Origin: Spartobacteria bacterium
GTDB lineage: Bacteria; Verrucomicrobiota; Verrucomicrobiia; Chthoniobacterales; UBA6821
DNA length: 38,445 nt
Assembly: GCA_947487385.1 (NCBI GenBank)
Contig: CANKWU010000016.1
Coordinates: 1 to 38,445, forward strand
Direction of reading: 5' to 3'
Under the pieces are notes generated by a model. The model made no database searches, had not been told where the DNA came from, and saw only the letters and a program-made list of their open reading frames with translations. Position 1 is the stretch's first letter. The number at the start of each line of letters is the position of its first letter. Made by a program: the position numbers and the translations under genes. Of the stretch, positions 35,654 through 38,445 are shown one piece after another.

Positions 35654-35792
35654 CCCCTCGACCCCTCGACCCTCGATTGATGGCACTTGCCGCCCGGCAA
35701 GCGGTGCCACCCCTCCGGGGCTACTTACAGTAGTCTTCCGCGGCTCTTCCCAGAGCCTTGGTTCTCGACCCTCGACCCTCTTCGTTCGACTC
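35654..35792 (+). repeat. Composite intergenic repeat block (ctcgaccctcg tracts plus hairpins)
   Basis: The 235-bp spacer between folB and chaA carries cccctcgacccctcgaccctcga (35654-35676), a hairpin (ggcacttgcc / ggcaagcggtgcc, 35682-35708), a GC-rich short hairpin (cccctccgggg) and a second tract ctcgaccctcgaccctcttcgttcgactc (35764-35792). Related copies occur at 37849-37911 (inverted) and 38352-38386. It looks like a dispersed, hairpin-forming (REP-like) repeat. No coding sequence is visible in this spacer. Confidence 0.55.
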
Positions 35793-37250: not shown

Positions 37251-37769
37251 ATGAATCCGTCGGTTATCGCCAATACTGGAGTCTCGGAGACCGGGGCCTC
37301 TTTGTTGTCCATTCAGCGGGAGATGGCCTCTGTCTTTGCGGAGATAGCCGATCTCTTTGGCAATCCCTCCTCATTGGGGGCCATTTACGGACTTCTCTTT
37401 GCTTCGCCGGAGCCTCTCTCCATGGAGGAGATTGTCGAGCGTCTTGGAATCAGTACTGGAACAGCCAGTCAAGGACTACGGCGCTTGGCGGAGATGCAGG
37501 CCATCCTGCCCAAAAAAGAGGATGGGGAACGAGTCACCCGCTACGAGGCCAAGCTCGAGCTGCGCCCCTTCGTTGCCATGTTTCTTGAGCAGCAGCTCCT
37601 GCCTAAGATCGGTCACTCCGCCGAGAGGATCGAGACGCTCAAGCAAAAGCTTTCCTCAATCCCCAAGGATTCCCGTGAGGAGTTAGGAATCCGCATGGAA
37701 AGAGCTTCCAAGTGGCACCGCAGGGCCAAGACCTTCCTTCCGCTCGTCAGAAAGTTTCTCGGTGGTTGA
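37251..37769 (+). CDS. GbsR/MarR-family transcriptional regulator
   Basis: A 172-residue winged-helix protein. Residues 30-100 (GAIYGLLFASPEPLSMEEIVERLGISTGTASQGLRRLAEMQAIL) form the helix-turn-helix expected of GbsR/MarR regulators. The C-terminal half (ERIETLKQKLSSIPKD...) is helical and probably mediates dimerisation. GbsR-like proteins sense choline or osmolytes in Bacillus; the ligand here is unknown. A 25-nt dyad just upstream suggests autoregulation and control of the divergent chaA genes. The leader is pyrimidine-rich and SD-less. Confidence 0.82.
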   Translation: MNPSVIANTGVSETGASLLSIQREMASVFAEIADLFGNPSSLGAIYGLLFASPEPLSMEEIVERLGISTGTASQGLRRLAEMQAILPKKEDGERVTRYEAKLELRPFVAMFLEQQLLPKIGHSAERIETLKQKLSSIPKDSREELGIRMERASKWHRRAKTFLPLVRKFLGG

Positions 37770-37848: not shown

Positions 37849-37911
37849 GGCCAAGGGCGGCAGCGTGCCTTCGGCTGAGTCGAAAGACGAAAGACGAGGG
37901 CCGAGGGCTTG
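37849..37911 (-). repeat. Inverted copy of the composite repeat, left flank of the four-helix-bundle gene
   Basis: Read on the minus strand it contains ggcacgctgccgcccttggcc and a 35-nt segment (37877-37911) that matches the one at 38352-38386 in 28 of 35 positions, in opposite orientation. The ggcac...gccgccc part resembles the hairpin at 35682-35708. It ends 9 nt before the start of the next gene. Confidence 0.55.
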
Positions 37912-37920
37912 AATAATAAA

Positions 37921-38319
37921 ATGAGCAGCAATCTTAAAAACTTTCGATTTGAGAAACTGGATGTTTGGCAACATGCCCGTCGCTTGAACAAAAAAATCTA
38001 TCTTTGCAGTAGCCAGTTTCCAGAGTCGGAACGTTTTGGTCTAGCGAGTCAGATCAGGCGCGCCTCGGTCTCCATTTCTTCCAACATAGCTGAAGGCTCG
38101 GGAAGAAACTCAGATGTAGATTTTTCTCATTTCCTGGAAATTGCCTATGGATCACTCATGGAAGCTATCTCTCAGCTATATTTGGCACTGGACGAAGATT
38201 TTATCACAAAAGCTCAACTGGACGATATTGTTAACGATGCGCATAGCCTTGCGGCACAGATTACAGCGCTTTCTAAATCTCTCGGCAGGCAGCCCCGCCG
38301 TTTGAAGCAAGGCGCTTAA
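37921..38319 (+). CDS. Four-helix-bundle protein (TIGR02436 / 23S rRNA IVP-like)
   Basis: A 132-residue protein. NFRFEKLDVWQHARRLNKKIY opens the fold, then FGLASQIRRASVSISSNIAEGSGR, FSHFLEIAYGSLMEAISQLYLALD and a final helix with TALSKSL. This matches the four-helix-bundle family first found in ORFs inside spirochete 23S rRNA intervening sequences. The function is unknown; relatives include the Avd protein of diversity-generating retroelements. The ATG at 37921 is preferred; a TTG at 37909 is in frame and lies within the repeat. Inverted 35-nt repeats flank the gene. Confidence 0.88.
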   Translation: MSSNLKNFRFEKLDVWQHARRLNKKIYLCSSQFPESERFGLASQIRRASVSISSNIAEGSGRNSDVDFSHFLEIAYGSLMEAISQLYLALDEDFITKAQLDDIVNDAHSLAAQITALSKSLGRQPRRLKQGA

Positions 38320-38351
38320 AAGTCTTCCATCGCGGCATGTATCTTTGTTTC

Positions 38352-38386
38352 CAAGCCCTCGACTTTCGACCCTCGTCGTTCGACTC
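38352..38386 (+). repeat. Right-flank inverted repeat of the four-helix-bundle gene
   Basis: caagccctcgactttcgaccctcgtcgttcgactc pairs with 37877-37911 (28 of 35 positions). It ends 3 nt before the start codon of the next gene and resembles the ctcgaccctcg tracts at 35654-35792. Confidence 0.55.
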
Positions 38387-38389
38387 GGT

Positions 38390-38445
38390 ATGAAAAAACA
38401 TTTTTTAATCATCGGCGCCGGCTTTGCTGGGCTTACCTTGGCCGA
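38390..38445 (+). CDS. Rossmann-fold FAD/NAD-binding oxidoreductase, N-terminal fragment
   Basis: The last 56 bases encode MKKHFLIIGAGFAGLTLA, a GxGxxG dinucleotide-binding motif at the very start of a protein, as in FAD-dependent oxidoreductases. The rest lies beyond the window, so the reaction cannot be named. Confidence 0.6.
   Translation, partial: MKKHFLIIGAGFAGLTLA

Follow-up and report, generated by a model that had tools for sequence, protein, structure and literature searches.

A four-helix-bundle gene between inverted heptanucleotide arrays as a probable mobile cassette resembling rRNA intervening sequences

Near the end of a 38,445-nucleotide stretch of Spartobacteria DNA, a small gene for a four-helix-bundle (FHB) protein lies between two protein-coding genes and is bracketed by inverted arrays of 7-nt repeats. 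The stretch, referred to here as the window, makes up an entire contig in a draft genome of 2.05 Mb that is 94.5% complete (G000). The gene product belongs to PF05635, the 23S rRNA intervening-sequence protein family, which has so far been met chiefly in insertions within rRNA genes and for which, to our knowledge, solved structures exist and no function is known; we are likewise aware of no settled origin for rRNA intervening sequences (IVSs) or for bacterial heptamer repeats, an open question since about 1990. We favor, with moderate confidence, the reading that the FHB gene and its two inverted 7-nt arrays together form a selfish mobile cassette of about 0.5 kb that resembles an IVS and is located outside rRNA genes. 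No description of this cassette was found in the open-access literature, to which the search was confined, subscription papers lying outside it.

The FHB gene and its arms in the window

The FHB gene (positions 37921 to 38319, forward strand) encodes 132 amino acids, with a TTG at 37909 as an alternative start. Its product matches PF05635 (E value, 9.6e-37; 125.9 bits, above the cutoff of 33.8) and TIGR02436, four helix bundle protein (E value, 6.6e-34; 116.4 bits, above the cutoff of 24). The AlphaFold model is a confident four-helix bundle (pLDDT, 91) and has the fold of the solved PF05635 members XCC0516 (2gsc; Z score, 19.9) and BT_0352 (2rld; Z score, 17.7), which are its closest matches. 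The next matches are to Avd, both alone and within the reverse transcriptase ribonucleoprotein (Z score of about 15; root mean square deviation, 1.5), and unrelated helical bundles fall below Avd, with Z scores of 12 or less. Avd is a pentameric, RNA-binding partner of the reverse transcriptase and template RNA in diversity-generating retroelements (DGRs). At the sequence level the likeness is weak, since the match to Pfam bAvd (PF22296) reaches an E value of 2.9e-4 and 21.8 bits, under the cutoff of 40; the similarity between PF05635 and Avd has already been noted in the DGR literature (PMC10053308), and XCC0516 forms a ring of five subunits (PMC4990558). PF05635 is present in 141 of the 195 sampled genomes of the phylum. 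The gene is under purifying selection: dN/dS between orthologues is 0.07 to 0.13 (0.126 between the window and genome G003), and the protein is therefore selected for function rather than drifting.

The left arm (37877 to 37911, forward strand), which pairs with the right arm in the predicted folds, is a purine-rich, degenerate 7-nt array of GACGAAA/GACGAGG units. The right arm (38352 to 38386, reverse strand) is an inverted copy of the array (CTCGACTTTCGACCCTCGTCGTTCGACTC), identified by repeat matching and shuffling; the tandem core of the cassette is a degenerate 7-nt unit, TCGACCC/TCGACTT. An initial annotation, made from the sequence alone, had described inverted flanks here that match in 28 of 35 positions and lie close to the start codons on both sides, and our analysis upholds both statements. 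In inverted orientation, 28 of the 35 positions of the arms do match; 60 first-order Markov shuffles of the region yielded no 35-nt inverted match better than 24 (mean of the best matches, 21.4). Nine nucleotides separate the left arm from the FHB ATG at 37921, and 3 nt separate the right arm from the ATG of the downstream gene at 38390. In a repeat search, the pair was the top-ranked inverted repeat of the region, and the match extended to 46 nt at 74%. A chance inverted repeat can be rejected on the shuffles and on the frequency of such arms, which flank 73% of FHB genes and 2.3% of other genes in the survey described below. The folding check that had been suggested also gave a positive outcome: the arms pair in both the minimum-free-energy (MFE) and the centroid predicted RNA folds (z, -2.58).

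The outer limits of this pairing place the whole cassette at 37875 to 38388 (forward strand). Outside it lie two host genes on the same strand, an upstream gene for a MarR/CudC-like regulator (37251 to 37769), recognized by profile matches, and downstream glf (38390 to 38445), which encodes UDP-galactopyranose mutase. The latter was assigned by its start and by an orthologue (locus L052); only its first 56 nt are present, because the window is the whole contig. Neither an rRNA match nor a match to a known RNA family was found in the cassette region, which sits between the MarR-like gene and glf.

Host junctions with and without the cassette

We surveyed 167 FHB loci in Verrucomicrobiota, Planctomycetota, Bacteroidota, and other phyla. 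A first sample comprised 62 FHB genes with their flanks from the same genus, family, and order; to this were added 80 loci from Planctomycetota, Bacteroidota, Verrucomicrobiota, and a few other phyla, together with loci from the phylum. The 62 copies are spread over 38 host sites, and a single FHB lineage occurs at several sites.

The initial annotation had advised a search for empty sites in relatives, and such sites were found at four chromosomal junctions, the relatives compared being draft genomes. The glf junction is filled in G000, G003, and G014 and empty in G006, where the MarR stop codon and the glf start codon are 3 nt apart. The cysH-cysD junction holds a cassette in seven genomes, and these cassettes belong to two FHB lineages that differ in unit and in position at the cysH end; five genomes are empty there (six loci, one genome having two cysD loci), with a junction of about 60 nt, and G002, among the genomes that lack this cassette, has a short solo array. 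The oppC-oppD junction is filled in four cases and empty in six, and G007 has a short array; G003 retains both arms and a remnant of the end of the FHB gene and is a deletion derivative. At the hemL junction, FHB is present in two cases, three are empty, and several have gene-less inverted-array hairpins. These comparisons show that the cassette is gained or lost at host junctions.

The gene-less hairpins at the hemL junction (loci L309, L311, L312, L314, and L315) are built from GCGCAGAG and GAACTCAG units, among others, and the junction, shared by them and by FHB cassettes, looks as if it were a hot spot. In another locus 5' of hemL (L064, on contig C90 of G006), translation of the right arm may give HemL an N-terminal extension (MSDLQPSAFSLQPAAP...).

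The cleanest comparison of empty and filled sites comes from named, complete plasmids of Nostoc, many of which share one operon. Between two genes of this operon, a cassette with arms of GGAGTCA units is present in pC052_D, pNsp_a, and pNPM1 (its FHB gene is broken in pNPM1), and the same junction is empty in pNsp_c, pC052_A, pC052_B, pNsp_b, and p057_H, where 3 nt separate TAG from ATG (the TAG-GTT-ATG type). One junction further on, only pNsp_c has a cassette, a different one with GGGAAAA-like units; here, TAA is followed directly by ATG in four other plasmids, and the rest have 2 to 4 nt. Cassette boundaries on these plasmids are near-exact. When the operon was used as a blastn query, the GGAGTCA cassette also turned up in Aulosira laxa, Trichormus variabilis, and Scytonema. 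The sites there are unrelated, and homology between them starts and ends at the arms: gene and arms are one unit. A decayed cassette is found in pC052_E at the Trichormus-type site. No clear target-site duplication was found; the candidates on the Nostoc plasmids are a 3-nt ATG and a 5-nt TTCTA, and the latter may belong to the repeat unit instead. The small repeat-bounded cassette that had been proposed for the window is well supported by the empty sites at four junctions and on plasmids, by the unrelated sites, and by arms that are specific to the gene.

A further plasmid, pPg_01 of Pseudanabaena galeata (locus L330), has cas6 and cas4 on either side of an FHB gene, and long direct 7-nt arrays flank the FHB gene. 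A large CRISPR survey includes the 23S rRNA intervening-sequence protein in an association figure (PMC10910872), and passenger status of the FHB gene may explain this reported CRISPR association of PF05635. The cas6-cas4 case exemplifies a more general warning, that PF05635 genes should not be read as functional partners of the operons that host them.

Where both neighbors could be called and form a co-directional pair, 121 FHB genes point the same way as the pair and 7 lie antisense to it; if insertion were random, half of the copies would be expected to be antisense. Other genes at these loci are co-directional in about 76% of cases. The nrdB-FHB-nrdA locus of Nostoc edaphicum is an exception in orientation, and at some other loci the FHB gene is antisense to the host operon or the arrays are in direct orientation. 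Because the cassette is usually co-directional with its host genes, it is probably transcribed with them. This orientation, together with the strong purifying selection on FHB, the proximity of the arms to both start codons, and their pairing in the predicted RNA, would also suit a regulatory hairpin, in which FHB is a stable host gene whose product binds the stem of its own operon and controls the processing or translation of the neighbors, the arms being an immobile operator. We regard this alternative as unlikely, since the 38 sites have host genes that are unrelated to one another, the sites of close relatives are empty, two FHB lineages occupy one junction (cysH-cysD), and decayed copies of the cassette exist.

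A somewhat smaller probability attaches to an mRNA-borne IVS that persists mainly because RNase III cuts the hairpin out, with mobility being rare or passive and relying on homologous recombination. The anatomy is that of the Coxiella IVS, which is excised by RNase III (PMC4990558), and a long hairpin is predicted; however, if the ends left by excision were not ligated, the host mRNA would be severed, and homologous recombination alone does not explain the presence of one cassette at unrelated sites. The broader suggestion of the initial annotation, a hairpin-forming transcript like the rRNA IVSs, is compatible with the predicted pairing of the arms and with the Coxiella anatomy (PMC4990558) and can stand in that form.

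Arm units, FHB lineages, and gene-less arrays

Matching inverted arms, defined by a score of at least 13, flank 122 of the 167 FHB genes (73%) and 6 of 256 other genes on the same contigs (2.3%; Mann-Whitney P value, 1.6e-43). The FHB figure is an undercount, because in some cassettes, such as L324, an arm overlaps the end of the gene; arms are not above background in about a fifth of FHB loci. By eye, most of the 62 loci in the first sample have a degenerate array, mostly of 7-nt units, 5' of the FHB gene and an inverted array 3' of it. In this sample, arms match their own partners far above permuted partners (z, 22.5), and the inverted orientation beats the direct one at 54 of the 62 loci; the pattern recurs in loci of other phyla. 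That inverted arms are specific to the FHB gene is well supported.

The repeat unit varies from locus to locus (TCGACCC, TTCAACT, TTTAACG, CATTACC, ACTGCGA, AGYCTWM, TTCATCC, and others). A single fixed repeat family around all FHB copies is therefore rejected, units differing by lineage, and the idea that identical repeats might flank other copies of the gene fails within G000 itself, where the second of two FHB genes has the unit TTCAACT. Among locus pairs at different host sites, unit similarity rises with FHB protein identity: the shared 5-mer fraction increases from 0.09 at low identity to 0.34 at 60 to 80% identity, and it reaches 0.29 between different phyla (nonorthologous sites). The Mantel correlation between arm unit and FHB identity is 0.233, against a null standard deviation of 0.042, and is the same after control for GC difference. 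These comparisons show that gene and arms are linked; the correlation is no proof of recognition, because arms and gene could simply be coinherited. Within orthologous sites, a test for compensatory evolution of the arms gave a weak signal (17.7 for own arms and 16.5 for arms swapped between orthologues), and we do not claim such evolution in general, because own arms hardly beat swapped ones. The cysH-cysD copy of G000 departs in part from this: paired with its own left arm, its right arm scores 18.8, compared with about 10.4 when the left arm is taken from its three orthologues.

Heptamer arrays also occur on their own. G000 has 16 exact TCGACCCTCG sites, compared with 1 for the reversed control, yet only two FHB genes, genome-wide array counts being based on pattern searches and about 0.44 Mb of sequence. 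Some of these sites are chance matches in genes, and several are real arrays (on contigs C1, C12, C15, and C6); because real arrays occur without an FHB gene, the 7-nt repeats are not restricted to the cassette. The initial annotation would have given up the cassette if other FHB copies lacked flanking repeats and the repeats occurred mostly without the gene; the repeats are indeed widespread without it, and a lack of flanking repeats around FHB copies was not what we found. Gene-less hairpins may represent decayed or nonautonomous forms of the cassette.

One gene-less relative, recognized by repeat matching, lies in the window itself (35654 to 35792) and consists of two direct 7-nt arrays around a structured core of about 100 nt. 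It had been assigned to the same repeat family as the arms, and positions 35764 to 35792 do match the right arm at 90% over 29 nt; as a whole, however, it is a different, gene-less composite with direct arrays. Its structured element (GATGGCACTTGCCGCCCGGCAAGCGGTGCC...) recurs in 7-nt arrays elsewhere in G000 (C12:50238 and C15:4369; loci L011 and L013) and in loci L054, L056, and L083, and in some cases it sits inside the left arm of an FHB cassette; the window copy has no Rfam match. Also in G000 (C1:251303-251513; locus L006), two array insertions lie in frame within a glycosyltransferase-like open reading frame (944 to 2233 of the locus), which recalls Rickettsia palindromic elements. At locus L094 (contig C24 of G004), an FHB gene and long period-7 arrays lie between two glf genes of the same contig, an arrangement that suggests a rearrangement through the arrays.

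Already disfavored, and in our judgment quite improbable, is the reading that 7-nt repeats expand by slippage and spread intergenically on their own, FHB genes merely tending to sit between two of them: gene-less arrays are frequent and some lie within a coding frame, period 7 is also dominant in arrays near other genes, and heptanucleotide repeats are described in PMC4679880 as the commonest long repeats in many genomes, but inverted matched pairs are concentrated around FHB genes on the same contigs (73% versus 2.3%), the unit tracks the FHB lineage, and cassettes move together with their arms.

Proposed mechanism and relation to known systems

In the mobile cassette reading, insertion would take place between a stop codon and the start codon that follows it, in most cases co-directionally with the host genes. 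The cassette transcript, or a single DNA strand, is predicted to fold into a long hairpin with the FHB gene in its loop. The FHB protein would bind this hairpin, or the repeat units that belong to its lineage, and might protect the hairpin or present it for integration, leaving the catalytic step to host or other trans-acting enzymes. The binding of RNA or hairpin, the mobile intermediate, and the mover are thus the parts of the model that we infer; it is possible that host replication or repair acting on the hairpin moves the cassette. No nuclease, recombinase, or reverse transcriptase gene is found within the cassette. Retromobility through a linked or resident reverse transcriptase is disfavored, since RVT_1 was not detected in G000 (at 94.5% completeness) and among 16 genomes of the genus was found only in G001; the linked reverse transcriptase of a DGR is likewise not seen. 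Mobilization by a Y1/RAYT enzyme is also disfavored, as PF01797 is not found in G000 and within the genus occurs only in G003 and G006.

More tentatively, and with rather less confidence than we place in the cassette itself, we suggest that an Avd-like pentameric protein that lacks a nuclease marks and mobilizes its own repeat-armed hairpin, and that such hairpins could be widespread minimal mobile elements. The rRNA IVSs would then be those copies that had inserted into rRNA genes, and the nonautonomous offspring of these elements would include many bacterial heptamer arrays and stems that lack the gene, perhaps also the cyanobacterial heptanucleotide repeats known as STRRs. If the cassette reading is true, the origin of IVSs, the heptamer repeats, and the function of PF05635 are joined in one object of about 0.5 kb, a mobile element with a single gene, the product of which is folded like a retroelement partner.

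Several known systems share parts of this anatomy. FHB has the fold of DGR Avd and weak sequence similarity to it; unlike a DGR, the cassette shows no template or variable repeat, and its genome has no detected reverse transcriptase. RAYT/REPtron elements likewise have a single small gene with inverted repeats on both sides, and derivatives that lack the gene are found elsewhere, but their gene encodes a Y1 (HUH) transposase, whereas the cassette gene belongs to PF05635 and lacks the Y1 nuclease fold, and the cassette has variable heptamers in place of the fixed, tagged palindromes of RAYTs. An integron-type cassette is rejected on anatomical reasoning, as there are arms on both sides rather than one attC hairpin. 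In marine Beggiatoaceae, intergenic TAACTGA heptamers end just 5' of start codons; unlike the arms of the cassette, these are direct repeats, and no FHB linkage is reported in the accessible text of that study (PMC4679880).

In the cyanobacterial STRRs and the P6b stems of the Nostoc tRNA-Leu intron, 7-nt units pair across the stem and are replaced as blocks (PMC4476775). The pairing is like that of the FHB cassettes, although these stems have no gene, and cyanobacteria also carry FHB cassettes with 7-nt arms; a common origin of the two may be envisioned.

The anatomy of the cassette recurs in the IVS of the Coxiella burnetii 23S rRNA gene, which is 428 nt long and has a 28-bp terminal inverted repeat, an S23p open reading frame, and three tandem GACAGAT heptamers just 5' of the S23p start codon (PMC4990558). 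Older proposals cited in the same study held that IVSs are mobile elements and that the open reading frame helps their mobility. The Coxiella IVS and the cassette have in common the protein family, a size of about 0.43 to 0.5 kb, terminal inverted repeats that form a long stem, and tandem 7-nt repeats just 5' of the open reading frame. Unlike the rRNA IVSs, the window cassette lies between protein-coding genes, its FHB gene is intact and under purifying selection, and its arms are arrays with a lineage-dependent unit. It has the terminal inverted repeats that form a stem, here a predicted one, and we do not count it among the rRNA IVSs, because it lies outside any 16S or 23S rRNA gene. By its anatomy, the cassette would work like an IVS that resides outside rRNA.
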